This document shows positions 947-44,750 of a stretch of DNA of 45,385 nucleotides, piece by piece. Source of the DNA: Mogibacterium sp. (GTDB lineage Bacteria; Bacillota; Clostridia; Peptostreptococcales; Anaerovoracaceae); assembly GCA_024403035.1 (NCBI GenBank), contig JAKSSP010000010.1, positions 1 to 45,385 of the forward strand, written 5' to 3'. A model generated the notes under the pieces. That model did not search any database and had not been told where the DNA came from. It saw only the letters and a list, made by a program, of their open reading frames with translations. Both the position numbers and the translations under genes were made by a program. The first letter of the stretch is position 1. Every line of letters starts with the position of its first letter.

Positions 947-982
947 AAAGAGCCTCCGGGAAAAAACCGGAGGCTCTTTTTT
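947..982. terminator. bidirectional terminator between convergent genes
   Basis: A perfect 13-bp stem, AAAGAGCCTCCGG (947-959) with CCGGAGGCTCTTT (967-979), has T runs on both strands. It ends the 73-residue protein gene on the plus strand and the arginine/pyrimidine operon, after the antiporter gene, on the minus strand. Confidence 0.9.
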
Positions 983-1000: not shown

Positions 1001-2047
1001 TTATACAAAGAAGAATGCCGCGCCTATCATGACATATACAGTCACCAGCTGAAGTCCCTCAAGCCAGTTCGATTCACCGTCGGAAGCGACACGGTTCGCT
1101 ATGAGAACAGAGCCCGTAACCGCGACAAGTTCAAACGGCGTAAACACTATGCTCATAGGTGTGAACAGAAGGCTGAGCAATGTCAGCACAGGTATGACGA
1201 AAAGGATGATCTGCAGGCTCGATCCAAGTGCTATCTCTATCGCTGCGTTCATCTTGTTCTTTACTGCCATGATGATGGCCGATGAATGCTCGGCCGCATT
1301 GCCGATTATCGGAACGAGTATGATGCCTACGAAAGTCTTGTGAAGCCCCGCGCTTTCAGCCATCGGTTCTACCGTGGACACAAACACCTCGGAGAGGAGG
1401 GCGATACATACTGTCGATGCTATCAGCAGAATGATGGCACGCGGCAGACTCGCTTTGTGACCTTCCTCTTCATCCGGAAGCGATTCTTCATAAAGGTTGC
1501 GGTGTGTCACGAAAGTAAACACGAACTGCATTACATATACGAGCAGCATAAGCAGCGCGATTATCACGCTTAGCCCTTCGTACTCTGTCGTCAGGCTGCT
1601 CTCCGGGAAGGCGTGTGTGAATATCGCCGGGATCGACAGCCCCAGGACTGCCAGCAGCAGCATGCTTGACGTTATGTTTATGGAATTTTTATTAAAGGTC
1701 TGTGTTTTGTATTTGAGTCCGCCCGTCAGCATCGATAAGCCCAGTACCAGCAGTATGTTGCCGATGACAGAACCCGCGAGCGACGCCTTGACGACATCGA
1801 ACATCCCGGCTTTCATGGCGACGAACGCGATGATAAGCTCTGTGGCGTTTCCGAAGGTCGCGTTCAGCAGACCTCCTATCTTCTGTCCGCAGAAGCAGGC
1901 GATGTCATCGGTGCTCTTTCCCATGACCCCCGCCAGCGGTATTATAGCCAGCGAGCTGCACACAAAAAGCAGAGGATCCGAAAATCCCATGAACTTGCCA
2001 ACTAAAGTGACAGGTATGAAAATCAGCAGTATGTACAGATACTTCAT
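1001..2047 (-). CDS. cax: Ca2+/H+ antiporter, Cax/ChaA family
   Basis: This 348-residue integral membrane protein belongs to the CaCA superfamily and should export Ca2+ in exchange for protons. It carries both family signature repeats, GNATEL (66-71) and GNAAEH (249-254), whose acidic residues bind the cation. About eleven hydrophobic helices are visible, and the length is normal for bacterial Cax. Its ATG shares four bases (ATGA) with the stop of pyrI, so it is translationally coupled to the end of the pyrimidine genes. It is the last gene before the shared terminator. Why a calcium exporter is tied to carbamoyl-phosphate metabolism is unclear. Confidence 0.88.
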   Translation of the reverse strand: MKYLYILLIFIPVTLVGKFMGFSDPLLFVCSSLAIIPLAGVMGKSTDDIACFCGQKIGGLLNATFGNATELIIAFVAMKAGMFDVVKASLAGSVIGNILLVLGLSMLTGGLKYKTQTFNKNSINITSSMLLLAVLGLSIPAIFTHAFPESSLTTEYEGLSVIIALLMLLVYVMQFVFTFVTHRNLYEESLPDEEEGHKASLPRAIILLIASTVCIALLSEVFVSTVEPMAESAGLHKTFVGIILVPIIGNAAEHSSAIIMAVKNKMNAAIEIALGSSLQIILFVIPVLTLLSLLFTPMSIVFTPFELVAVTGSVLIANRVASDGESNWLEGLQLVTVYVMIGAAFFFV

Positions 2048-2472
2048 TCTTTGTTCTCTCTATATAGCGTGTCACAGTACACGCATCTGTAGCTGCGCGC
2101 GTCCTTGTCGACGAGCCTGAATTTCTGAGGAATGCCTCTTTCCACCGATGTGATGCATCTTGGGTTACGGCATTCGAGCACGTCCGTCAGAATCGTCGGA
2201 GGTGCCGGCTTAAACTTCTTTACAAGCTCGCGGTCCTTGACGACGTTGACCGTGATGTTTGGGCTTATGTATCCGATCAGGTCGTAATCGATAGGGATAT
2301 CGGCATCGATCTTGATGATATCCTTCATGCCGTACTTCCCGCTGCTTGCTCTCTGTATGATCGCTACGGTGCAGTCCGCCTTGTCGAGGCCAAGGAGGTG
2401 GTAAAGCTCAAAGCCCTTGCCGGCTTTGATGTGATCCAGCACATACCCGGTGTTTATTCCATCTATGTTCAT
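2044..2472 (-). CDS. pyrI: aspartate carbamoyltransferase regulatory chain
   Basis: This 142-residue protein is the PyrI regulatory subunit. It binds nucleotides through its N-terminal domain and joins the catalytic PyrB trimers through a C-terminal zinc domain. The four zinc ligands are visible as C101-x4-C106 and C130-x2-C133, the spacing known from E. coli PyrI. It begins 14 bases after pyrB and overlaps the antiporter start by ATGA. Its presence suggests that aspartate carbamoyltransferase is feedback-regulated here, unlike the PyrB-only enzyme of Bacillus. Confidence 0.93.
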   Translation of the reverse strand: MNIDGINTGYVLDHIKAGKGFELYHLLGLDKADCTVAIIQRASSGKYGMKDIIKIDADIPIDYDLIGYISPNITVNVVKDRELVKKFKPAPPTILTDVLECRNPRCITSVERGIPQKFRLVDKDARSYRCVYCDTLYRENKE

Positions 2473-2486
2473 GTGTTACCTCCTAT

Positions 2487-3407
2487 CTATTTGATACCCA
2501 GCAGATACAGTATGAGCGCCATGCGGATGTACTTGCCCATCAGAGCCTGATAGAAATAGCAGGCTCTCGGATCATCATCCACATCCACGTCTATTTCGTT
2601 TACGCGCGGAAGCGGATGCATGATTATAAGGTCTTCCTTTGCCGGTTTCAGCATAGCTCTTGTAAGGATAAAGCTGTCCTTGAGTTTTTCGTATTCTTCC
2701 CAGCTTGGGAACCTCTCCTGCTGTATCCTCGTCATGTACAGTATGTCGAGATCAGGGATCGCGTCGTCGAGGCTCTCAACTTCGCTCCACTCAGCTCCGG
2801 CTTCATCCAGCTTCTCTCTTATATATGCAGGCAGCCTCAGCTCTTCCGGAGCTATCATCACATATTTGACGCCTTCGTACCTCAGCAGCGCCTCTATGAG
2901 CGAGTGCACCGTTCTGCCGTACTTGAGGTCTCCGCAGAGGCCTACGGTAAAGTTTCCGATCTCACCTTTTTTGCGGTGTATCGTCATGAGGTCGGTAAGC
3001 GTCTGTGTCGGGTGGAAGTGTCCGCCATCGCCCGCGTTTATGATAGGGACCGAGGATTTGACCGCTCCGACTACCGGCGCGCCTTCCTTAGGGTGCCTCA
3101 TCGCAATGATGTCTGCATAGCAGCCTGCCATGATTATCGTGTCGGACACGGACTCTCCTTTTTTGGAGGAACTCGAGTCTGCCGAATCAAATCCCAGGAC
3201 GTTGCCTCCCAGTTCCATCATGGCCGCTGTGAACGAGAGCCTTGTGCGTGTGCTCGGCTCAAAGAACAGGGTAGCCAGTTTTTTATGAGCGCATGCGTCC
3301 TGATATTTCTCCGGATTCGCGATTATGTCATCGGCAGTCTCCATCAGGTGATCAAGCTCTTTAACGCTCAGATCGGTGATATTGATCAGATGTCTTAACT
3401 CTCCCAT
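2487..3407 (-). CDS. pyrB: aspartate carbamoyltransferase catalytic chain
   Basis: PyrB condenses carbamoyl phosphate with aspartate to give N-carbamoyl-aspartate, the first committed step of pyrimidine synthesis. The carbamoyl-phosphate loop FFEPSTRTRLSF (STRTR at 52-56), the HPTQ motif and the HPLPR motif are all present. The 306-residue length is normal. It lies 32 bases downstream of the ornithine cyclodeaminase gene in the same operon as the arginine deiminase pathway. Carbamoyl phosphate released from citrulline could therefore feed this enzyme directly. No attenuator or PyrR site is visible in the short gap before it. Confidence 0.96.
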   Translation of the reverse strand: MGELRHLINITDLSVKELDHLMETADDIIANPEKYQDACAHKKLATLFFEPSTRTRLSFTAAMMELGGNVLGFDSADSSSSKKGESVSDTIIMAGCYADIIAMRHPKEGAPVVGAVKSSVPIINAGDGGHFHPTQTLTDLMTIHRKKGEIGNFTVGLCGDLKYGRTVHSLIEALLRYEGVKYVMIAPEELRLPAYIREKLDEAGAEWSEVESLDDAIPDLDILYMTRIQQERFPSWEEYEKLKDSFILTRAMLKPAKEDLIIMHPLPRVNEIDVDVDDDPRACYFYQALMGKYIRMALILYLLGIK

Positions 3408-3439
3408 ACGATTCCCTTTCTGTGTTATTACGGTATATA

Positions 3440-4561
3440 TTATCTCTGTTTTGAATATTTTTTCCAGTCAAGCTTCAGGCCATTTGCTATGATCGCGATG
3501 AAGTCCTGAACATTGGTGACGATGGTAGTAGCCGCGAGGCTTCCTCTGTCGAGCAGCTTGTTGACTACGAATTCATCGGCGTCAACGGTGTAGAGGAACA
3601 CCGGTCTTACAGTACCGTCCTCAAGCACTCTGAACGACGGGGTCATGTTGCCGGTCGCTATCGTGTGCAGCATGGTCGCCAGGCATATGACCGTAGTCGT
3701 CTTTTTGATGACACTGCGCATCTCGTTCTGTCCCTGATAAACATCCCCAATGACTTCCGGAATAGGACCGTCATCTCTGATGGATCCTGTCAGCACGATA
3801 GGGACATCGTTCTTGACGCAGCTGTAGATGATGCCGTTGTCGATGTCATAATCCTCTATGAACTGCGGTATGGAACCGCTGCGGCGCACTCTGTTATCCA
3901 CATCGAGGTGGTTGTAATGCCCGTTAGGCATGGACTGCTGTGTGTAAATATCCTGGCCGAGCGCGGTGTTGAGCATGGCGCCTTCAAGGTCATGGGTCGC
4001 AAGAGCGTTTCCGGCCATCAGCGCGTCAACATATCCGTTCTCTACCAGAGCCTGCATGCAGGCTCTCGCGTCATGGTCGAAGGCGAATGCCGGGCCCATG
4101 ACCCATGTTATGAATCCGTGCTCTTTTTCATATTCGAGCAGCTCAAACAGTCTGTCGTAGTCGCGGGCGTATGATGTCTCTCTGCTGCGGCCCTGACGGA
4201 ACACGAACTGATCATCGAGTTCTTTTTCGTCCTCCGCAAAGCCCTTGCTGTGGACATATATGCCCTCGTGTCCGTCCTCGCTCCTGCCGAGCACCACCAG
4301 ATCGCCTTTTTTGATGTTGCGGTTCTCGACCACATCGAGCCTGCCGTCCGGCCTCAGTACGACGCTGGAATCCATACGGCTCTCTTCAGCGAGTTTCCAC
4401 TCTCCGTTCACCTTGAAGTATTCAGGGAACATCGATGTGCTGTGATAGTACTCCGGCGCGACTCCGTCCATGTCCGCGGCTTCAAGCCTGCAGTCCGGAG
4501 CGCTTGCCAGCTCCGGCTTTGTGAAATCCGGCGCTTTGTAAACAGGCATTTTGAATAGCAT
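3440..4561 (-). CDS. ornithine cyclodeaminase, archaeal/AgrE C-terminal type (TIGR00300-like)
   Basis: The 373-residue protein matches the LOR/SDH-like family typified by the archaeal ornithine cyclodeaminase and the C-terminal domain of cyanobacterial AgrE/ArgZ. It is unrelated in sequence to the mu-crystallin-type cyclodeaminase. Recognised landmarks are the N-terminal beta domain ending near RNIKKGDLVVLG, then NALATHDLEGA and TGSIRDDGPIP in the nucleotide-binding part. The expected reaction is ornithine to proline plus ammonia with bound NAD+. The context supports this, because ornithine carbamoyltransferase and arginine deiminase lie directly upstream. A GAGAGGAG site precedes the ATG by ten bases. 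The family is secure; the exact activity is inferred from relatives and context. Confidence 0.82.
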   Translation of the reverse strand: MLFKMPVYKAPDFTKPELASAPDCRLEAADMDGVAPEYYHSTSMFPEYFKVNGEWKLAEESRMDSSVVLRPDGRLDVVENRNIKKGDLVVLGRSEDGHEGIYVHSKGFAEDEKELDDQFVFRQGRSRETSYARDYDRLFELLEYEKEHGFITWVMGPAFAFDHDARACMQALVENGYVDALMAGNALATHDLEGAMLNTALGQDIYTQQSMPNGHYNHLDVDNRVRRSGSIPQFIEDYDIDNGIIYSCVKNDVPIVLTGSIRDDGPIPEVIGDVYQGQNEMRSVIKKTTTVICLATMLHTIATGNMTPSFRVLEDGTVRPVFLYTVDADEFVVNKLLDRGSLAATTIVTNVQDFIAIIANGLKLDWKKYSKQR

Positions 4562-4594
4562 ATCGGTTTATCTCCTCTCAGGTATTTGTATCCT

Positions 4595-5590
4595 TCAGGC
4601 CAGGGTCGCTACCAGGACAGCCTTGATGGTGTGCATTCTGTTTTCCGCCTCATCGAACACTACGGAATTCTTTCCGCTGAAGACCTCTTCGGTCACCTCG
4701 CGGATGTCGTATCCGAGCTTCATCTGTTCAGCCGCCATCGTAGTATCAAAGTTGTGGAAGGATGGCAGACAGTGCATGAAAATGTCATCAGGGTTCTCTG
4801 TCTTTGCAACGAGTTCTTCCGTGACCTTGAAAGGTGTCAGCATTCTGACTCTCTCCGGGATCTGATCCTCTTCTCCCATCGATGCCCAGATATCCGTGTA
4901 GATCACATCGGCACCCTTAAGGCAGGCGTCATCATCGGTCACGGTGATCTTAGCGCCTGTCTCTGCAGCTGCGGCGTTGGCGCGCTTCAGCACTTCAGGG
5001 TCAACTCCGTCGCAGAGTTCTTTCGGTCCGTATGCAGCGAACTCCATGCCCATCTTGGCGCAGCCGTACATCCAGGCATATGCCATGTTGTTTCGTACGT
5101 CGCCCACGAACACCACCTTCACCTTATTGAGCGGCTTATCTATGTGTTCTTCTATAGTCATGATATCCGCGAGTATCTGTGTCGGGTGGTCCACATCGGT
5201 AAGTCCGTTCCACACAGGGACTCCTGACTCTCTTGCCAGCTCTTCCACCACAGCCTGCTCATAGCCTCTGTATTCTATGCCGTCAAACATGCGGCCAAGC
5301 ACTCTGGCTGTGTCAGCGATGGTCTCTTTCTTTCCCATCTGTGAGCTCTTGCTGTCAAGGAACGTGACCCCCGCGCCTTCATCCATCGCGGCTACCTCGA
5401 ACGAGCACCTCGTCCTTGTCGATGTCTTTTCAAAGAGCAGGACGATATTCTTGCCCTCCAGTATTCTTCCCTTGATACCGCTTTTCTTCTTTGCCTTCAG
5501 CTCGTGCGCGAGATCGAGCAGATATCTGATCTCGGCTGGTGTGAAGTCCATCAGTGTCAGAAAACTTTTTCCTTTAAGATTGACTGCCAT
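4595..5590 (-). CDS. arcB: ornithine carbamoyltransferase, probably catabolic
   Basis: This 331-residue enzyme interconverts citrulline plus phosphate with ornithine plus carbamoyl phosphate. The carbamoyl-phosphate loop FEKTSTRTRCSFE (STRTR at 57-61), the HPTQ motif and the catalytic HCLP motif (273-276) are present. It starts 17 bases after the arginine deiminase gene, the usual arc arrangement, so a catabolic role is most likely. What normally follows is carbamate kinase. Here the next genes are ornithine cyclodeaminase and pyrBI, so both products of this enzyme have a dedicated consumer in the same operon. Confidence 0.94.
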   Translation of the reverse strand: MAVNLKGKSFLTLMDFTPAEIRYLLDLAHELKAKKKSGIKGRILEGKNIVLLFEKTSTRTRCSFEVAAMDEGAGVTFLDSKSSQMGKKETIADTARVLGRMFDGIEYRGYEQAVVEELARESGVPVWNGLTDVDHPTQILADIMTIEEHIDKPLNKVKVVFVGDVRNNMAYAWMYGCAKMGMEFAAYGPKELCDGVDPEVLKRANAAAAETGAKITVTDDDACLKGADVIYTDIWASMGEEDQIPERVRMLTPFKVTEELVAKTENPDDIFMHCLPSFHNFDTTMAAEQMKLGYDIREVTEEVFSGKNSVVFDEAENRMHTIKAVLVATLA

Positions 5591-5607
5591 TTATTCCTCC
5601 TGTGCTT

Positions 5608-6828
5608 TTATAAGTCGTCTCTGTTTACAGGGCAGGACATGCAGCGCGGGCCGCCTCTGCCTCTTGAAAGTTCTGAACTTGGCATCGTGAGCACCTCTAT
5701 GCCGCTCTTATGGAGCAGCTCGTTTGTCACGTAGTTTCTTTCGTATGTGATGACCTTGCCCGGAGCGATGCAAAGGGTATTGGATCCGTCGTTCCACTGC
5801 TCTCTCTGCGCTGCCATGGCATCATCGCCTCCGCAGCGTATTAGTCTTACCGTCGGCAGGCCGAGCTCCTGTGACAACAGCGTCCTCAGGTCTTCCGTCT
5901 TTGATTCGAAGTGTATCTCTCCGTTGGCGTTCAGGCTGAGTTCAAAGAGCTGCAGCGGTCCTTCTATCTCGGGATGGATGGAGAACTTATCATAATCGAC
6001 CATGGTGAATACCGTGTCGAGATGCATGAACGCTCTCTTCTTAGGTATGTTGAACACCAGCACCTTCTTGAAGTCCGAATTTTCGAGAAGGTTTTTCGTG
6101 AATGTCTCTATACCGGCGGCAGTAGTTCTTTCCGACAGGCCCACCGCTACTATGTCCTTGCTGAGCACCAGTATGTCTCCGCCTTCGATGCTGTGAGGAT
6201 CACTGTAGTCGTACCACTTCTCCGTGCCGCTTGGCGCAAAGTCGTCATTGAATTCGTACATGTACTTGAACAGCAGACTCTCGCGTCTTCTTGTGGCTGT
6301 ACTCATATGGTGTATCGACACTCCGTTGCCGATGCAGGCTGCCTGGTCCCGGGTGAAATACATATTTGGCATAGGGTCCATGTAGAAAGGATATGCCTCA
6401 TCGATCTTCTCGGCCAGCGTCTTCGGTTTATACTCTGTGATCTCGCTCTTTCTGACTCCTGAGATGACCTTGTTGAGCAGGTCTTTAGGATTCATCGCGA
6501 TGAGATAAGCGTAGACAGCTTCCTTTACTCCGCGGGACGAGAAACTGACCTCGTCGAGCATCTCGCGTATGAAGCGGTCCCTTATATCTGCCTTCCCGAG
6601 AGCCTTAGCTGCTTCATCGACATAATAAACGACCTCGACGCCGTTCTTTTTCAGGATCTCGGCGAAGCGGTCGTGTTCCTGCTGTGCTACTTTGAGGTAT
6701 GGTATGTCGTCAAAGAGAAGTCTGGCAAAATTGTCCGGCACGAGTCCGTCGACTTCGCTTCCTATGCGGTGAAGAAGCACTTTGTTAAGTCTGCCTATCT
6801 CCGAATAGTTATGTACTCCCCTTACCAT
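5608..6828 (-). CDS. arcA: arginine deiminase
   Basis: This 406-residue enzyme hydrolyses arginine to citrulline and ammonia. It has the typical guanidine-modifying motifs: PNMYFTRD, the SIEGGD acid pair, HLDTVFT with the catalytic histidine, and the C-terminal GRGGPRCMSCP with the catalytic cysteine at 396. The length is normal for ArcA. The ATG at 6828 follows an AAGGAAA site that overlaps the end of the YolD-like gene, so translation is probably coupled. This is the entry enzyme of the arginine pathway encoded by the next five genes. Confidence 0.96.
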   Translation of the reverse strand: MVRGVHNYSEIGRLNKVLLHRIGSEVDGLVPDNFARLLFDDIPYLKVAQQEHDRFAEILKKNGVEVVYYVDEAAKALGKADIRDRFIREMLDEVSFSSRGVKEAVYAYLIAMNPKDLLNKVISGVRKSEITEYKPKTLAEKIDEAYPFYMDPMPNMYFTRDQAACIGNGVSIHHMSTATRRRESLLFKYMYEFNDDFAPSGTEKWYDYSDPHSIEGGDILVLSKDIVAVGLSERTTAAGIETFTKNLLENSDFKKVLVFNIPKKRAFMHLDTVFTMVDYDKFSIHPEIEGPLQLFELSLNANGEIHFESKTEDLRTLLSQELGLPTVRLIRCGGDDAMAAQREQWNDGSNTLCIAPGKVITYERNYVTNELLHKSGIEVLTMPSSELSRGRGGPRCMSCPVNRDDL

Positions 6829-6834
6829 AATACG

Positions 6835-7023
6835 CTATTTCCTTTCCTGCTCCCTCGCGTGCTCTTCTTCCGCCTGTCTCAGCCTCTCGCCGAGGCCGGT
6901 GAGCGCATCAAAAGGAGCGAACTGTTTGGCTCGCTGTGAGCGGGGCATCTTCGGCCTGTCTGATGCCGGACGCTCCCATATTTTCTCCTTGTCCATTATA
7001 CTAGATATCCGTTCTTCTTTCAT
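6835..7023 (-). CDS. YolD-like small protein
   Basis: This 62-residue, highly charged protein resembles the YolD-like family (RAKQFAPFDALTGLGERL is the recognisable core). Such proteins are usually encoded next to Y-family polymerases of the UvrX/UmuC type and are thought to act as partners of those polymerases, a UmuD-like role. It begins a few bases after the polymerase stop. The ATG at 7023 is chosen; a GTG one codon upstream (7026) is equally possible. It ends six bases before the arginine deiminase gene. Confidence 0.72.
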   Translation of the reverse strand: MKEERISSIMDKEKIWERPASDRPKMPRSQRAKQFAPFDALTGLGERLRQAEEEHAREQERK

Positions 7024-7032
7024 CACTTCTCG

Positions 7033-8421
7033 TCATTCTTTGTGGCCTCCGACCTGATGATTTCTCTCTCTGGTGGTCGCTGCCTCTTCGAGATCCATGG
7101 CCCTGAACATCGCGTCCTTGCCGTACTTGTTTCTTATGGAATTGACTGCCTCCTGAAGGGCTGTGTCGCGCTTCAGCTTTGCCTGTGTTTCGGCTATAGG
7201 GTCAGCTCTGTCATCCTTCTTCTTTTGCCCCTGTGTCTTGCCCTCTTCTTTAGCCTCAGCATCCGCGAGATCGAAAAGTGTCATCTGCTTATCCGCTTCT
7301 CTCTCTTTTATGTCGTTAAAGTTGACGAATATGCGCCTGACCGGATATTCATGGTCCGTTATCCTGTCGTAGAGGTCTGCGACCGCAGGCATTATGAGCG
7401 ATGACGCGTCCGTCGGCACCGGGAAGGATACCGAGCCGTGTGACATCGGAACGTGCAGCGCGTTGCTGTAGCCTACCGCTATGGAGACGTTCCGCGTCAA
7501 CTTACGTATATCCGTCATCTCATGGCAGAGCTGCTCGGTCATTTCCTTTATTATGAGCAGGCCCTCAGCATTCGTGTAGTCGCGCATCAGTACCTGGCCG
7601 TGCGAGAGCGAATGGCTCCTGGTCTTGTAGCCTTTTATATCTGACATCTCGGTCGACTCGAGCCCATAAGCGTGGTCTATCATGAGTTCTGCGTTGATGC
7701 CGAAGTTCTTGTAGAACCAGTCCTCATCGCGCGCGGCAAGAGCGGCTATCCCGCCCATTGTGTCTATTCCTATGCGCTCAAACTTCTTGGCAGTCTGACG
7801 GCCTATCATCCAGAAATCTGTGAGCGGCCTGTGATCCCACAGCTGTTCCTTATATGTATCTTCATCCAGCACTCCGATGAAGTCATCTGCGTGCTTGGCT
7901 ATTATGTCCATGGCTATCTTGGCCAGATAAAGGTTAGGCCCGACTCCCGCCGTCGCCCTTACGCCTATCCTTTCATATACCTCCCTCATAAGGAGCTCTG
8001 CCATTTGTTTAGGGTCAAGGCCGTAACGCTTAAGGTATGCCGTCACATCAAAGAAGACCTCATCGATGGAGTATACATGCATGTCCTCAGGCGCTATGTA
8101 ATCAAGGTAGACCTTATAAATAGCCGCCGCGTATTCCATGTACAGGCTCATCCTCGGAGTAGCCATTATGTATTCGAAACTCTTGGGGATCTCAAACACC
8201 CTGGCCCTGCCGCTCACTCCGCGGGCCTTGAGAGAAGGAGACACAGCAAGGCAGATGGTGCGGTCTGAACGGGTAGGATCCGCCACGACAAGGTCGGTCG
8301 TCATAGGATCCAGTCCCCGCTCCACGCACTCCACCGAAGCATAGAAAGACTTTAGGTCAATGCAGACGTAAGACCTCTCCCAGTTACCATAGTCAAATTC
8401 TTTTGATGCTGTTTTTATCAT
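7033..8421 (-). CDS. Y-family DNA polymerase (UmuC/UvrX-like)
   Basis: This 462-residue error-prone polymerase of the DinB/UmuC superfamily should copy across damaged DNA. The palm residues are visible: the first metal-binding aspartate in YVCIDLKSFYASVE (D22), the paired acids in YSIDEVFFD (D120, E121), and the ATAGVGPN segment. The last 60 residues are Lys/Gln/Glu-rich and form a flexible tail that probably carries a clamp-binding peptide. The ATG directly follows the TAA of the regulator gene (TAAATG), so the two are tightly coupled. Finding it between an AraC regulator and arginine deiminase is unusual, as such genes are normally under LexA control. No LexA box was recognised upstream. 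Confidence 0.88.
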   Translation of the reverse strand: MIKTASKEFDYGNWERSYVCIDLKSFYASVECVERGLDPMTTDLVVADPTRSDRTICLAVSPSLKARGVSGRARVFEIPKSFEYIMATPRMSLYMEYAAAIYKVYLDYIAPEDMHVYSIDEVFFDVTAYLKRYGLDPKQMAELLMREVYERIGVRATAGVGPNLYLAKIAMDIIAKHADDFIGVLDEDTYKEQLWDHRPLTDFWMIGRQTAKKFERIGIDTMGGIAALAARDEDWFYKNFGINAELMIDHAYGLESTEMSDIKGYKTRSHSLSHGQVLMRDYTNAEGLLIIKEMTEQLCHEMTDIRKLTRNVSIAVGYSNALHVPMSHGSVSFPVPTDASSLIMPAVADLYDRITDHEYPVRRIFVNFNDIKEREADKQMTLFDLADAEAKEEGKTQGQKKKDDRADPIAETQAKLKRDTALQEAVNSIRNKYGKDAMFRAMDLEEAATTRERNHQVGGHKE

Positions 8422-9153
8422 TTATCCAAACTGACGACGGTACTCCACCGGCGTCATCCCTTCAGCTTCCGTAAAATTCTTTGTGAAGTAACTCTGCGAG
8501 CAGAACGCCAGCCTGTCCGCTATCACAGCGACGCTCAAGTCTGTATCCCTCAGCATGCGCTTGGCTTCCAGTAGTCTCTCGTTCAGTATGAACTCGCTTA
8601 TGGTGATGCCCAGCTCATCCTTGAACACCGCAGACGCGTAGGTTCGGCTGATACCCACAGACTCCGCTATGTCAGCAAGTTCTATCTTCTCGGTCAGATG
8701 CTCTTCAATATATGTCATCATGCGGGCCAGCCGTGGCGACCTTTTCTTTTCTTTGAGTACATATTTCATCTTCACGGCGTAGCTGTGAGCCATTCCGTGA
8801 ACCAGGTCATAGATGTCCGGCAGCGAGACCGCGTTGTCGAACTCCTTGATGAACTCGTCGCGTATGTCATAAGAGACCATGTCAAGCAGGCCGGACTGTA
8901 TCGCCACCAGGCACATCTCATTTGCGGCTCCGACCGCCTCATAGTACATCTTGTCCATCGCTTCGCTGTAAGAACCGCACCTGTTGTACAGAGCGGTCGG
9001 ATACTCGTAATTTGTCTGCGAAAGCTCAGCTATTTTTTCAGTATCGCCCGCAGCAATCGCCTCAAAGTACGGCTTCTTGCGCGCATACGGAAGGTAGATC
9101 TGGTTTCTGCGTGTACGGCTTAATATTAAATTGGCGGTTTTCTTATCTGACAT
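8422..9153 (-). CDS. AraC-family transcriptional regulator
   Basis: A 243-residue protein is obtained with the ATG at 9153, chosen because AAGGATC lies eight bases upstream. A longer reading to 9342 would place the promoter and an inverted repeat inside the gene. The C-terminal 100 residues are a double helix-turn-helix AraC domain (IELADIAESVGISRTYAS, then LSVAVIADRLAFCSQSYFTKNF). The N-terminal part is mostly helical, with no recognised ligand-binding family. As first gene of the arginine/pyrimidine unit it is the likely local regulator. Arginine or ornithine as inducer is a guess. Confidence 0.88.
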   Translation of the reverse strand: MSDKKTANLILSRTRRNQIYLPYARKKPYFEAIAAGDTEKIAELSQTNYEYPTALYNRCGSYSEAMDKMYYEAVGAANEMCLVAIQSGLLDMVSYDIRDEFIKEFDNAVSLPDIYDLVHGMAHSYAVKMKYVLKEKKRSPRLARMMTYIEEHLTEKIELADIAESVGISRTYASAVFKDELGITISEFILNERLLEAKRMLRDTDLSVAVIADRLAFCSQSYFTKNFTEAEGMTPVEYRRQFG

Positions 9154-9169
9154 TATTTGATCCTTATTA

Positions 9170-9214
9170 ATGGTTTTATATGCGCAGGCGGGCCTGACGA
9201 CCATATAAAACCAT
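9170..9214. promoter_or_regulatory. 13-bp perfect inverted repeat in the operon leader
   Basis: ATGGTTTTATATG (9170-9182) is repeated in perfect inverse as CATATAAAACCAT (9202-9214). The arms can be lengthened outward by TTATTA/TAATAA if two bases bulge. The 19-base spacer itself holds CAGG-CGGG-CCTG. The repeat lies between the -10 box and the regulator start codon. It could be an operator for the AraC protein or an RNA hairpin controlling the operon. Confidence 0.6.
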
Positions 9215-9243
9215 AGTAATAATCTTATATAATTCGTAACAAT

Positions 9244-9270
9244 ATTATAACATCGCGCCTCTTCAATCAA
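9244..9270 (-). promoter_or_regulatory. promoter of the arginine/pyrimidine operon
   Basis: On the minus strand a perfect TATAAT (9244-9249) is preceded by TTGATT (9265-9270) at a short 15-base spacing. Transcription would begin near 9237, giving a leader of about 85 bases that contains the inverted repeat. Confidence 0.55.
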
Positions 9271-9342
9271 TACAATGAAGGTGTAACGGATCATGTTTTT
9301 GCAGGCTGTCAGTTCAACTCGCAAGAGTTTGTTTGCAGACAA

Positions 9343-11048: not shown

Positions 11049-11990
11049 TCAAAAGGTTGCTACCTCAGGCTTGCATGCTTCACATTTTTTAAGATTCCTG
11101 ATGTACAGAACAGGGCCCTTTTCCTGGTACGCGTCGGTGTATTCGCAGCGCACTTTAGCTGTTATTTCTATCCAGTCGCCGACGCTGAGTTTTTCAGCTC
11201 CCGCGTAGTATGCGAGCAGGCCGGCAAACTGTATGTCCGCCTCGCAGCATGTCATCACGTGACGGCCAAAGGCAAACTGCCCTTCAGGCAGCTCATCGGA
11301 GAGCGCGACACGGCCTTTTATGATGAAGGTCTTGCCGTCGTAATCGTCTTCATTCTCGTTGATATCTCTGTACCACTCCGCGTACCATTCATCCTCGATC
11401 TTGATCTTTGAAGCCTTCATGTCATAAGGCAGAGGATCGATGATGTCATCAGGTTCTATGTCGTCGATGCCATACTCATAGACTATCATGTTGCGGCGGT
11501 TGGCGATCCTTACTTCCTTGTGGTAAGGCATTTTGTCGAAGCCCTTCACGCAGCGGTTGAAAACGACCAGATCAGCCGTCTGCATCTTGTTGAAGCAGAG
11601 CTGACGCATGTTCTTGTTGTACATCATGAATGTGGTGGTGTCGAAGAGCGCCATTTCCTGGGCGATGACCCAGTCAGGCGGCATGGCGGCAAAGAGTTTC
11701 TGGTTCTCCCACATGCCGTTCATCTCTACAACAACGCGGTCGAATCCGCCCTGCCTGTCCATCCTTCCGAGATTGACTTCGTTCAGCTCGGCTTCAGTCT
11801 TTATGCGTTCCACTCTGACTCCCGGGCCTACGAACTTTTCAGGCTCGTACTGGACTTCGCCGTTCTCGCATATCAAAAGGAGGGTGCGGCCGTCGTCGCC
11901 GAACTCATGATGCTCAAGCGTTTCCTTTATAAATGATGTTTTGCCGGCTCCGAGGAAGCCGGTGAACAGATAAACAGGTATTTCTCTCAT
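11049..11990 (-). CDS. COG0523 (CobW-type) GTPase fused to a YcgQ-like (DUF1980) domain
   Basis: This 313-residue protein has an N-terminal G3E GTPase with P-loop GFLGAGKT (11-18). The CxCC metal motif found in most relatives is absent and the NKxD guanine motif is degenerate (NRCV). After about residue 205 comes a beta-rich domain (FIIKGRVALSD, FAFGRHVMTCCEADIQFAGL, GDWIEITAKV). It resembles the C-terminal domain of YcgQ/TIGR03943 proteins, including the CC pair. YcgQ and its partner permease YcgR are often encoded with COG0523 GTPases and linked to zinc supply. Here the two parts are one chain and no permease is nearby. The start overlaps the upstream GTPase stop by ATGA. A role in metal allocation is inferred. 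Confidence 0.78.
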   Translation of the reverse strand: MREIPVYLFTGFLGAGKTSFIKETLEHHEFGDDGRTLLLICENGEVQYEPEKFVGPGVRVERIKTEAELNEVNLGRMDRQGGFDRVVVEMNGMWENQKLFAAMPPDWVIAQEMALFDTTTFMMYNKNMRQLCFNKMQTADLVVFNRCVKGFDKMPYHKEVRIANRRNMIVYEYGIDDIEPDDIIDPLPYDMKASKIKIEDEWYAEWYRDINENEDDYDGKTFIIKGRVALSDELPEGQFAFGRHVMTCCEADIQFAGLLAYYAGAEKLSVGDWIEITAKVRCEYTDAYQEKGPVLYIRNLKKCEACKPEVATF

Positions 11991-13024
11991 GACAGTTTAA
12001 ACAGCTCGTGCAGTTTCTCCTTGTTGAGTCTTGTTCCGATGACAGCTACCATGCCCGTAGCCTCGGCTCCGGTCTCCCTGACCTCGCCCTCGCCCGGTAC
12101 ATAATCGAACTCCAGCCATCCGCCATCAGTGTTCTCTACGATACCCTTTGCTCTGATGACCTCGCCGCATTCATCCAGGCTGTCGATGATATCTTCAAGC
12201 TCTGCCTTGGTATACTTGTTGCTTGTCTGAGCGCCGGCCTCATCAAATACCTCATCGGCATCGTGGCCGTGATGGTGATGATGGTGATGGTGGTGATGAT
12301 GGCAGCACTCATGCTCTTCTTCATCATCGTGATGGTGGTGATGATGGTGCTCATGATCGTGCTCATGCTCATGGGCCTCGAGTTCGTCGTACGCCTCTTC
12401 TCTGAGCTTATCGAGCTCAGCGTTCAGCGTTTTGTCGGACTCCATTACCTCAAGCATCTTGGCGCCGGACAGCTGATCCCAGTCTGTCGTCACGACCTGA
12501 GCGGTCTTGTTGAGCTTCCTGATGTCCTTCACTACCTCATCGAGTTCGGCGGAAGTCATGCTCTGCTGGTGCGAAAGGAAGATGGAGCTTGCGTGCTCTA
12601 CCTGGTTCGCGAAGAACTCGCCAAAGTTCTCCATGTACATTTTGTATCTCTTGGCATCGACTACTGTTGTGAATCCGTTGAGCTCGATCTTGTCGTTTTT
12701 AAGGTCCTGCACTGCGATGATGACGTCGGACAGCTTGCCGACTCCGGACGGTTCTATGAGTATCCTGTCCGGATCGTACTGCTCGATGACCTCGTTGAGC
12801 GCCTTGCCGAAATCTCCGACCAGAGTGCAGCAGATGCAGCCCGCTACCATCTCATTGATCTTTACTCCCGATTCCCTGAGGAAGCCGGTGTCTACTCCGA
12901 TCTCACCAAACTCGTTCTCTATGAGTACGATGTTCTTTGTATCATAGCCTTCCGCTATAAGTTTCTTGATAAGTGTCGTCTTTCCTGCTCCGAGGAATCC
13001 CGAAAAGATATCTACTTTTGCCAT
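11987..13024 (-). CDS. COG0523 (CobW-type) metal-chaperone GTPase with histidine-rich loop
   Basis: This 345-residue GTPase of the CobW/ZigA/YjiA group is thought to deliver metal to target proteins. It has P-loop GFLGAGKT (9-16), switch region ENEFGEIGVD, and the metal motif C63-I-C65-C66. Residues 218-254 form a His/Asp/Glu tract with two long histidine runs and a CC pair, a strong zinc, nickel or cobalt store. The position expected for NKxD reads LSHQQS, so guanine recognition must differ or be weak. The C-terminal CobW_C domain follows. AAGGAA precedes the ATG and an extended -10 box lies upstream. It forms an operon with the overlapping second GTPase. Confidence 0.88.
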   Translation of the reverse strand: MAKVDIFSGFLGAGKTTLIKKLIAEGYDTKNIVLIENEFGEIGVDTGFLRESGVKINEMVAGCICCTLVGDFGKALNEVIEQYDPDRILIEPSGVGKLSDVIIAVQDLKNDKIELNGFTTVVDAKRYKMYMENFGEFFANQVEHASSIFLSHQQSMTSAELDEVVKDIRKLNKTAQVVTTDWDQLSGAKMLEVMESDKTLNAELDKLREEAYDELEAHEHEHDHEHHHHHHHDDEEEHECCHHHHHHHHHHHGHDADEVFDEAGAQTSNKYTKAELEDIIDSLDECGEVIRAKGIVENTDGGWLEFDYVPGEGEVRETGAEATGMVAVIGTRLNKEKLHELFKLS

Positions 13025-42914: not shown

Positions 42915-43373
42915 CTAGAACGGATCGCTGACTATGACCTTGCCGTCTTCCTGAATGATGATATTCATGCCGTCTTTGACGTACTCAAGGAATTCGTCGC
43001 CCAGCGAATCGATGACCGGCATCTTTGCCTCAGGAGCATCAAGCCATACATCGGCCAGTATTGCTCCCGCAGCCGCCAGCGAATCGATAGGGTTCGAGAA
43101 AAGCATTGCAGCAGGCTGGCGTCCCATAGAGCATGCGCAGTACAGTACGAGTCCTCCTGTGGTGGAACCAATGGTCTGAGGCAGGCATAGAGCCTTGCCG
43201 GCCATCTGCTTTCCGTAAAGATCCGGATTGTTCTGATCGCCGCATGTGGCTTTCTTGTCGCCAAACTGCAGCGCCTTCTGGAAGGAGGCGAGCGTATTAA
43301 GGCCGCCGTGTGATACGAGCGCTTCAGCAGATACTCTGCCCGGCGCTACTACGCGTCCCTGGAATGACTTCAT
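42915..43373 (-). CDS. aconitase X small subunit (DUF126 swivel domain)
   Basis: This 152-residue protein matches the swivel domain of aconitase X. It shows AGKALCLPQTIGSTTGGLVLY (the usual GRGSxSxS loop is IGSTTGG here), RQPAAMLFSNPIDSLAAAGAILAD and GDEFLEYVKDGM. In bacteria the two-subunit form dehydrates hydroxyprolines such as cis-3-hydroxy-L-proline; in archaea a relative acts on phosphomevalonate. It begins two bases after the large subunit with AAGGAGG inside that gene's end, so the two are made together. The substrate is not fixed by sequence. Confidence 0.82.
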   Translation of the reverse strand: MKSFQGRVVAPGRVSAEALVSHGGLNTLASFQKALQFGDKKATCGDQNNPDLYGKQMAGKALCLPQTIGSTTGGLVLYCACSMGRQPAAMLFSNPIDSLAAAGAILADVWLDAPEAKMPVIDSLGDEFLEYVKDGMNIIIQEDGKVIVSDPF

Positions 43374-43375
43374 GT

Positions 43376-44668
43376 CTATTTGCCTCCTTTCTTCTGAGTG
43401 ATCTGCTCCGCGATCTCATCATCCGTATAGAAGCGGGCCGATGTGTAAGTTCTGAGCTTGTTGCTCGAGGTGATCACAGGCATCTTTTCGCTCAGCGGAT
43501 TGTTCATGTACATGAGCGGGCAGATATATGAGGTGATGACTCCTGCAGCCTTGAGCCTCTCTGCGTAAGGCGTCTTTCCGAACGCTTCGAGAACATCAGG
43601 CGCTGCGGTAAAGACCGTAGGTACCGTGACCTTTGATTCGCCGCTCTTTTTGAGTCCTTCTTCCACTTTCTCTGTCCAGTCCTTGAGCTGCTGCAGACTC
43701 ATGTGCGGGCAGCCCATGAAGCAGAGCTTCGGAGCCGCGTCCTTGTTCTTCCAGATCACCGGATACTCGCGGTAAACTCTCTCGAGTTCGGCGTCATCGA
43801 TCACATAAGTCTTGGCGTCTTTCTTTATGAGCTTCTTTCCGTACTTTGCAGCCTCCGGTGTCAGCTTGTCGATGTGATAAAGGCCTACCGCGCCGTTTGA
43901 AGCCGTTGCTGCTCCGAAGTCCTTGAGGTATGTGCAGGCTTCGTCATCGAGCTCTGCGCCGAGCCACTTGTCGAGCCCGACCACGTACGGAACGTCTTCC
44001 ATGACCTTCATGCCTATGGCCGATCCGAGGAGCTGTGCCTCAGGCTTCTTTGTTGTCTTGATCTCAACGATCCAGTCCGCCTTGCGGCCTTCGTCCGTCA
44101 GCAGACCGAATTTCGGAACGTATCCGATGACCGATCCCATCAGGTCGATGATGCCCGAGTTTCTGTTGCATCTTGCGCCAAGCACTGAATTGGCGTAAAC
44201 GACGGCAGATGACTCTGACCAGCTGAGTATTTCACCGAATCCCGGCTTGTTGCCTACTTCATCCATGTAGCAGGTGCATGTGAACGCGTTGTCCGAGAGA
44301 AGGCCCAGGTCAGCCAGCTGCTTCTCGTAGTCCTTCTGCCTGCTGTACATGAAGAACTTGAATACCACATCCTGCGCAAAGTTGCTCGGAACGTTCTTAT
44401 CGAGCGGCTTAGGGTCTACGGTGAACTTCTGTCCCGACAGAGCTCCCGCCTCAAGCAGCTTGTCCATCAGCTCGTAAACAGGGCCGAGAGCCTTGAGTCC
44501 GAACGATGTTACCAGGTGGTTGTACTTGCTGCTGATAGGCACCATCTCGGTAGCGCCGAAGAGCTCGCCGTATCTTACGAGCGATTCCATGACCTTCGCG
44601 AGGGTCTCCCCCTTGGAGCCTTCAAGAATGGCCTTCTGCTCATCGGTAAGTTTTACTTTGTAGTCCAA
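43376..44668 (-). CDS. aconitase X large (catalytic) subunit (DUF521)
   Basis: This protein of about 430 residues is the iron-sulfur catalytic chain of aconitase X. LTDEQKAILEG at the start, EMVPISSKYNHL, TCTCYMDEVGNKPGF, SVLGARCNRNSGIIDLM and FMGCPHMSLQQL are the family landmarks. They include the cysteines expected to hold the cluster. A TTG at 44668 is taken as the start, because AAAGGAG (44678-44684) abuts the upstream ATG at 44677 but stands nine bases before the TTG; the ATG would add three residues. Hydroxyproline dehydration is the most likely activity in a proline-metabolising anaerobe, but other hydroxy-acid substrates are possible. Confidence 0.85.
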   Translation of the reverse strand: MDYKVKLTDEQKAILEGSKGETLAKVMESLVRYGELFGATEMVPISSKYNHLVTSFGLKALGPVYELMDKLLEAGALSGQKFTVDPKPLDKNVPSNFAQDVVFKFFMYSRQKDYEKQLADLGLLSDNAFTCTCYMDEVGNKPGFGEILSWSESSAVVYANSVLGARCNRNSGIIDLMGSVIGYVPKFGLLTDEGRKADWIVEIKTTKKPEAQLLGSAIGMKVMEDVPYVVGLDKWLGAELDDEACTYLKDFGAATASNGAVGLYHIDKLTPEAAKYGKKLIKKDAKTYVIDDAELERVYREYPVIWKNKDAAPKLCFMGCPHMSLQQLKDWTEKVEEGLKKSGESKVTVPTVFTAAPDVLEAFGKTPYAERLKAAGVITSYICPLMYMNNPLSEKMPVITSSNKLRTYTSARFYTDDEIAEQITQKKGGK

Positions 44669-44750
44669 TGATCCCATCTCCTTTCCGTGATTATATAAAC
44701 AGCATTGTCAACTATTATTCTAACACACTGAAGCGTGTGCTTCTCACTGT

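Follow-up and report, generated by a model that had tools for sequence, protein, structure and literature searches.

A 45,385-nucleotide stretch from the gut bacterium Mogibacterium sp. (Anaerovoracaceae; assembly GCA_024403035.1, contig JAKSSP010000010.1; hereafter the window) carries an operon in which genes for arginine deiminase (ADI; arcA), ornithine carbamoyltransferase (OTC; arcB) and a putative ornithine cyclodeaminase (OCD; ocd) are followed by pyrB and pyrI, the genes for the catalytic and regulatory chains of aspartate carbamoyltransferase (ATCase). We consider it probable, though well short of certain, that this operon is an arginine-fed anabolic branch supplying both proline and pyrimidines, as a preferred rather than an obligate route. 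The gene content, the gene order and its conservation, a single PyrI in each carrier, the lack of a detected proA in OCD-bearing members of the genus and the presence of a prd cluster in the same assembly are direct observations and form the basis of this reading.

The operon and its conservation

All five genes are on the minus strand, in the order arcA (5608..6828), arcB (4595..5590), ocd (3440..4561), pyrB (2487..3407) and pyrI (2044..2472). The intergenic gaps are 17, 33, 32 and 14 bases, as had been described in an earlier reading of the sequence alone (gaps of 14 to 33 bases), and from this tight packing the five genes are likely to be co-transcribed. No carbamate kinase gene (arcC) was found among the operon genes of the window, either in the gene list or with NCBIfam; adjacent arcA and arcB genes over their cut-offs are therefore present as in an ADI operon, without the in-operon arcC.

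Families were called with NCBIfam and Pfam models at curated cut-offs and by alignment to solved structures. All five products pass one or more of the curated NCBIfam cut-offs for their respective functions, and the structure alignments cover ArcA, ArcB, PyrB and PyrI almost from end to end and OCD over most of its length. ArcA scores 503 bits against TIGR01078 (cut-off 489), and its residues 5-406 align with the arginine deiminase structure 4bof, with the GGPRCM motif kept. ArcB, probably a catabolic-type OTC, scores 387 bits against TIGR00658 (cut-off 281) and matches the OTC structures 3upd, 1dxh, 1ort, 2w37 and others, with STRTR and HCLP kept; its best model is PRK04284 (503 bits, below the cut-off of 515), which we take to represent the catabolic OTC class. 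PyrB scores 341 bits against TIGR00670 (cut-off 237), aligns with 1ml4 and retains STRTR and HPLPRV. PyrI exceeds the cut-off of NF002063 (177 bits, cut-off 171) as well as those of PF01948 and PF02748, falls below that of TIGR00240 (107 bits, cut-off 149) and keeps four cysteines in its alignment with 1pg5. We take these motifs of the three enzymes to be their active-site motifs and the four cysteines to be the zinc motif of PyrI. With allosteric and metal-binding PyrI domains and intact PyrB motifs, the pair has the makeup of a class B ATCase (PyrB-PyrI).

The ocd product belongs to NF052526 (ODC_var; 616 bits, cut-off 440) and also matches PF21570, scoring below the cut-off of the broader TIGR00300 (263 bits, cut-off 411). 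It aligns with 3c2q and with the C-terminal part of 6lrf/6lrh (Alr4995) and 6juy (Sll1336), and it accordingly corresponds to the C-terminal half of cyanobacterial AgrE/ArgZ, encoded as a protein of its own.

The arrangement recurs within the genus. Our panel of 60 relatives comprised 36 genomes of the same genus (the genome of the window, G000, included) and 24 from outside it; ODC_var was present in 30 of them (24/36 in the genus and 6/24 outside). The order arcB-ocd-pyrB-pyrI was found in 14 of the 36 genus genomes (14 of the 24 bearing ODC_var), 12 of them with arcA and two without, and in one further named carrier, L039, not matched to the 36. On these counts chance adjacency of the operon genes was rejected, and the conservation of gene order that the sequence-only reading had put forward as a check is seen. 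PyrB of the 15 operon genomes is 86-98% identical to that of the window, and all 12 strong arcA matches of the genus sit in these operons, the G020 copy scoring 485, just below the cut-off of 489. The family matches and the conserved order also bear out the earlier claim that each product has an in-operon consumer, OCD for ornithine and PyrB for carbamoyl phosphate. In the remaining ten OCD-bearing genus genomes OCD is 55-65% identical to that of the window, and no window arc or pyr gene was found beside ocd in the stretches available (about 1.5 kb or less on each side); the larger stretches around ocd of G031 and G008 were inspected by eye.

The named loci L034-L113 are the best 80 of 537 confirmed stretches. 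Together with L002-L031 they make up 110 loci to which a context label was given, context being the arc and pyr genes within 4.5 kb; 65 of the 110 were labelled 'other', and 26 of these have less than 3 kb on one side, beyond which arc genes could lie. Among the best 80, seven loci combine arc genes with pyrBI (L034-L040, of which L036 is without arcA), and the nearest relative with a name is L034 (Mogibacterium sp. RGIG2376, goat ileum), whose OCD is 97% identical to that of the window. A further 24 have arcA and/or arcB beside ocd without pyrBI; arcC is near in ten of them, and in the other 14 there is none within 4.5 kb or the available stretch. By their record titles, these arc-ocd clusters are widespread in Lachnospiraceae and Oscillospiraceae, and within the same best 80 of 537 loci pyrBI in an arc-ocd cluster was found in this genus only. 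No arcC was seen at 21 arc-plus-pyr loci (repeats included), with about 1.5 kb beside ocd visible in 14 of them and more in seven.

A quick maximum-likelihood tree was built for OCD only, not for arcA or arcB, from 104 rows after removal of six same-contig repeats and of L018, the window's own copy, and addition of the window protein. The 15 arc-plus-pyr OCDs form one side of a branch with a Shimodaira–Hasegawa-like approximate likelihood-ratio test (SH-aLRT) value of 99, and they nest in an 88-member, mostly Lachnospiraceae and Oscillospiraceae set (SH-aLRT 100), apart from the stand-alone OCDs of the genus; long branches were flagged and the support of the tree is limited. The window PyrB is 76-80% identical to pyrB of seven of nine same-genus non-carriers (68% and 64% to the other two, G005 and G011) and 52-60% identical to the 14 pyrB compared outside the genus. 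The simplest reading of these comparisons is that a foreign-type OCD was joined to resident pyrBI and, because PyrB is genus-resident by identity, that the resident pyrB apparently moved into the arc operon.

NCBI names the NF052526 family 'putative NPN-dependent ornithine cyclodeaminase', the cofactor being the nickel-pincer nucleotide (NPN), and the family is thus already described. The own genome carries larB and larC. A larC match occurs in 14/14 operon carriers, yet also in 9/12 OCD-free genus genomes, and none was found in the OCD-bearing G019 (100% complete), G054, G029, G021, G028 and G057, so that larC co-occurrence is weak evidence for NPN dependence of OCD. No paper joining ornithine cyclodeaminase to the nickel-pincer nucleotide was found in the literature searched. 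A second, stand-alone ODC_var gene of G008 adjoins larB and larC (contig C60, L120:7132-10157), which fits the proposed cofactor. Tandem ODC_var-type genes were also observed in G055 (contig C15:17364-19574, L031); these are 49% and 43% identical to the window OCD, suggesting a divergent second function.

Pyrimidine and proline genes in operon carriers

Exactly one pyrI match was found in each of the 14 carriers, the own assembly included, and in every case at the operon. PyrBI is the only detected PyrI-bearing ATCase of the cell, pyrI-less pyrB genes not having been searched for; within that scope, the single PyrI per carrier and the genus-level identity of PyrB led us to reject the idea that pyrBI had been imported and accompanies another PyrI-bearing ATCase. 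In the own genome pyrC-pyrK-pyrD-pyrF-pyrE lie together on contig C55 (L237) without pyrBI, pyrE and pyrK having been found by tblastn with a relative's genes. The cluster is likewise without pyrBI in all six carriers in which it was opened whole (own, G032, G003, G009, G024 and G033); the pyr contig of G002 (5.3 kb) was inspected as a list of open reading frames (ORFs) only. Among three non-carriers opened, pyrBI is in or beside the pyr cluster in two, preceding it in G010 and ending it in G005. By coordinates, pyrI of G007 is less than 4 kb from carB and less than 8 kb from pyrD.

In the arginine-fed anabolic reading, whose steps are assigned from family membership, ArcA would convert arginine to citrulline and NH3, and ArcB would convert citrulline and phosphate to ornithine and carbamoyl phosphate. 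OCD would then turn ornithine into proline and NH3, and PyrBI would combine carbamoyl phosphate with aspartate to give carbamoyl aspartate for the pyrC-K-D-F-E cluster elsewhere. Consumption of ornithine and carbamoyl phosphate would pull the unfavourable cleavage of citrulline, the role of carbamate kinase in classical arc operons. We infer the enzyme activities, the co-transcription, the direction of flux and the relevance of this PyrBI pull from the genes and their arrangement. Proline would go into protein, no ProBA route having been detected, and could additionally act as a Stickland electron acceptor via proline reductase. Since carbamoyl phosphate may also be supplied by CarB and drained by a carbamate kinase encoded elsewhere, the coupling would not be obligate.

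No proA match was found in any of the 24 OCD-bearing genus genomes (E-value limit 1e-20), and the two of the 36 genus genomes that have one are both without OCD. In the own assembly (77% complete) proB was not recognised; the amino-acid-kinase family occurs there at three places, one being arcC and the others judged by length and score. PrdA (922 bits), PrdC and PrdD are over cut-off in the same assembly, and a proline-racemase-like gene falls below it. Given this prd cluster, proline could be both building block and electron acceptor, and the earlier suggestion that the operon provides proline to a Stickland fermenter agrees with the gene complement. A rough estimate for an assumed cell composition puts the proline need at 0.4-0.9 of the pyrimidine need, using a proline content of 3.6% taken from the mechanical ORF list of the window, which may include a few false ORFs; with demands in this ratio, a 1:1 supply fits anabolic use.

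The prd cluster would equally serve a mainly fermentative operon, in which proline is the Stickland acceptor for proline reductase and PyrBI chiefly removes carbamoyl phosphate so that citrulline cleavage runs. Clostridium sticklandii is a precedent, combining the ADI pathway with a proline-making ornithine cyclodeaminase according to an excerpt of its description (PMC3091704). We think this explanation unlikely, as its flux would exceed the pyrimidine need many times over and PyrBI alone would be a poor sink, and carbamate kinase would be a better partner, yet is not in the operon. Feedback control is to be expected of an ATCase that contains PyrI. The anabolic reading is favoured because the far larger fermentative flux would need another sink for carbamoyl phosphate.

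An aconitase-X pair (AcnX plus swivel domain) was noted at 42915-44677 of the window. Its large part is nearest to the NCBIfam model for cis-3-hydroxy-L-proline dehydratase, far below the cut-off, and the pair may encode a further proline-related enzyme in this genome, which gave no proA match.

Counter-evidence and alternative explanations

A number of findings weigh against the arginine-fed anabolic reading. Twelve of the 14 carriers have carB over cut-off (none in G002) and two have carA (G033 and G042); because carB is kept in most carriers, carbamoyl phosphate is available without arginine. Across the genus carB is over cut-off in 29/36 genomes (9/12 and 20/24 in the two sets searched), a few of them truncated, and carA in 5/36. 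Most genus genomes thus seem to hold an orphan CarB without CarA, presumably using free ammonia. With carB kept, loss of carbamoyl-phosphate synthetase (CPS) was rejected as the driver of the operon, and the situation is not that of a Thermococcus kodakarensis-like supply, in which the genome has no CPS. As regards the earlier proposal that the operon makes pyrimidine synthesis partly independent of CPS, arginine is not a forced source of pyrimidines. Of the own carB only a 3' piece was found, near a contig end; the near-identical G032 has the whole gene (contig C7:238410-241532, L239), without carA as in most genus genomes. The own piece encodes 229 residues at the end of contig C12 (L114:18682-19582), where by eye the last ~200 bases seem not to continue carB, and this contig end is perhaps chimeric. 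The orphan carB of G032 adjoins a gene for only the C-terminal part of GMP synthase, without the glutaminase domain (L239:13616-14587).

The own genome also encodes a carbamate kinase over cut-off (374 bits; contig C12:80734-81663) beside ygeW, which could drain carbamoyl phosphate. Carbamate kinase is over cut-off in nine of the 12 genus genomes searched, the own included, with a contig-end fragment in G002. It is conceivable that the operon belongs to an ordinary energy-yielding ADI pathway, with carbamoyl phosphate going mainly to the ygeW-side kinase, OCD disposing of ornithine and pyrBI present by chance or through housekeeping co-expression; the own genome has an unbroken ygeW-arcC pair, and carB would be left as the pyrimidine source. 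We judge this improbable, as no arcC lies in the visible stretch of any arc-plus-pyr locus, arcC adjoins ygeW in both arcC loci opened, and pyrBI is retained beside the arc genes across 15 genomes and is gone from the pyr cluster in the six carriers opened. The ygeW-arcC pair of the own genome (L001:9229-11409, contig C12) lies in a cluster that by eye resembles one for purine/ureide degradation, with xanthine-dehydrogenase-like, dihydropyrimidinase-like and ygeY-like neighbours.

The coupling of both products to in-operon consumers, as proposed in the sequence-only reading, gains from the single pyrI in the operon (14/14) and the pyr cluster without pyrBI (6/6), but it is not exclusive, since both carbamate kinase and carB exist: arcC was found elsewhere in the genome, beside ygeW, and carB is mostly kept, mostly without carA. 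That reading had named a carbamate kinase together with a separate complete pyr operon as evidence against the coupling. Of these two, the kinase is present; no complete pyr operon was seen elsewhere, as the ATCase is in the arc operon.

Further points concern linkage and proline. In the non-carrier G031 pyrBI lies apart from the pyr cluster and no neighbouring arc gene was noted, so that unlinking alone is not meaningful. A proA match is missing in 34/36 genus genomes and its lack is thus not specific to OCD carriers; for this reason we graded the exclusion between proA and OCD weak as a statistical result. Three genomes from outside the genus (G019, G054 and G056) have both OCD and proA, and OCD is therefore not always a ProA substitute. 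Moreover, some relatives carry proC close to the operon, and hydroxyproline is another possible proline source, as proposed for C. difficile in an excerpted account (PMC13410763). There is also no independent promoter evidence for the arc transcript, the site before arcA being inside a small ORF.

Lastly, G004 (L019/L126) and G006 (L016/L036/L125) keep dinB and the small-ORF region followed directly by arcB-ocd-pyrB-pyrI, in contiguous assembly and with no full arcA in the assemblies (78-79% complete). Arginine is for that reason not the direct substrate in these two; citrulline may be. Both would suit a module using imported citrulline, or one running in the anabolic direction with OTC making citrulline from CarB-derived carbamoyl phosphate, arcA being dispensable in either. 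However, arcA is kept in 12/14 operons and the top-scoring OTC model for ArcB is PRK04284, presumably of the catabolic class, and we hold such a module to be very unlikely.

Returning to the arginine-fed anabolic reading, we tentatively propose, with rather less assurance than for that reading as a whole, that an energy-yielding ADI pathway has been turned biosynthetic. ATCase and a Lachnospiraceae/Oscillospiraceae-type OCD would have replaced the in-operon carbamate kinase, one arginine would give one proline and one pyrimidine precursor, and the only detected ATCase of the cell would be expressed on the schedule of arginine rather than on that of the pyrimidine cluster.

Flanking features and known systems

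On the downstream side, cax (1001..2047, minus strand), encoding a Ca2+/H+ exchanger (TIGR00378, 368 bits), overlaps pyrI by 4 bases and is probably on the same transcript. A cax gene comes after pyrI in L034 as it does in the window, but L035-L040 have none at this place, and cax was rejected as a member of the conserved module. Beyond cax is a terminator-like hairpin of 13 pairs (947..979), scored on both strands with the T-run better on the plus strand; the scan of the window for terminator-like sites found 11 against 6.1 expected in shuffles. In relatives, proC lies about 6-8 kb downstream of the operon in L036, L037, L039, L125 and L126, and at the same distance in L035-L040 and L125 is a weakly PyrD-like gene (26-27% identity), perhaps dihydropyrimidine-dehydrogenase-like.

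On the upstream side, a 62-residue ORF (6835..7023, minus strand), YolD-like by eye and not named in the sequence-only reading, lies between dinB and arcA, separated from the former by 9 bases and from the latter by 6. It was found in 9/9 sequences compared, two of these without arcA, and in five relatives (L035, L037, L038, L039 and L040) there is an overlap between its stop codon and the start of arcA; Pfam gave no match for the shorter 6999-6835 reading. A promoter-like ATGAAA-17-TATAAT (6995..7023, minus strand) is kept in the same nine sequences. Because it sits wholly inside the start of this conserved ORF, its conservation may reflect coding, and we rejected it as evidence for an operon promoter. 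The gene for a DinB/UmuC-family DNA polymerase (7033..8421, minus strand; PF00817) is syntenic in L034-L040 and has been assigned no pathway role. It is directly preceded by an AraC-family regulator-like gene (8422..9342, minus strand; PF00165 and PF12833), read from a TTG start although the true start may be downstream, and a possible regulator. Because the two genes abut with a gap of 0 (8422/8421), the transcript may begin further upstream. The span to 9270 that the sequence-only reading gave for the operon also includes dinB and the AraC-like gene. Rfam gave no window match at gathering thresholds, leaving an RNA leader unsupported. Two GTPases of the CobW type, of which one contains a His-rich stretch and the other a C-terminal DUF1980 domain, are encoded at 11049-13024, upstream of the GH25-araC-dinB-arc region and, by eye, likewise upstream in G006 (L125).

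In the usual view, CPS produces carbamoyl phosphate for biosynthetic use, and carbamate kinase consumes it when arginine is fermented. An operon joining citrulline cleavage to ATCase would be an encoded bridge between the two in a bacterium, with ATCase out of its usual pyr cluster. It makes the testable prediction that proline receives the ornithine carbons of arginine and pyrimidines receive the guanidino carbon. The operon also suggests a proline source for a genus where proA is rarely found, and it warns that ADI genes in gut or rumen genomes need not mean ATP production.

The arcA-arcB-(arcC)-ocd clusters of Lachnospiraceae and Oscillospiraceae, such as those of Clostridium asparagiforme DSM 15981 (L044) and C. 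citroniae (L060), have an OCD of the same family (72-80% identical) beside arc genes, but pyrB-pyrI is beside ocd in 0/24 of them among the best 80 of 537 loci. Cyanobacterial AgrE/ArgZ (6lrf, 6lrh, 6juy) shares a homologous C-terminal ornithine cyclodeaminase region, fused there to an arginine dihydrolase that releases CO2 and NH3; here OCD is free-standing, and ArcA and ArcB would split arginine, releasing carbamoyl phosphate. The classical arcABC operon likewise has adjacent ArcA and ArcB genes in the usual order, but in the window there is no in-operon arcC, and ocd and pyrBI occupy the downstream place. According to an excerpted account, most catabolic transcarbamylase genes are located near a carbamate kinase gene, and the unfavourable cleavage of citrulline depends on an enzyme acting after it, as a rule carbamate kinase (PMC6022934).

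Comparable fluxes have been reported in other organisms. In T. kodakarensis, growth in the absence of pyrimidines was severely impaired by loss of arcE or arcB, and the authors describe arginine as a source of proline and pyrimidines and ornithine as a proline precursor (excerpt of PMC13260591). The path from arginine to ornithine and carbamoyl phosphate, and on to pyrimidines, is common to that arginine synthetase pathway and the one proposed here; that organism is an archaeon using ArcE rather than ArcA and, by the same excerpt (PMC13260591), has no CPS, whereas carB is present in most of our carriers and the genes are in one operon. Eggerthella lenta given 13C6-arginine formed M+1 orotic acid and pyrimidines and low-level M+5 proline, but most of its arginine went to ornithine for ATP and, in the excerpted text, the authors do not regard arginine as a major biosynthetic precursor (PMC10234575). 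The ArgX model of Lactococcus lactis, as excerpted, proposes that ADI-derived carbamoyl phosphate is diverted to pyrimidines through blocked arcC1 translation (PMC6586332); this is a regulatory diversion in a normal arc operon with no co-encoded ATCase. No printed description of an operon joining arcAB, ocd and pyrBI was found in the literature searched. The window operon implies no new chemistry, and fluxes from arginine to proline and pyrimidines are already known; what is new is the architecture, a catabolic-type OTC co-encoded with ATCase instead of carbamate kinase in one genus, and it is notable and easily testable in that ATCase has been relocated and carbamate kinase is missing from the operon.

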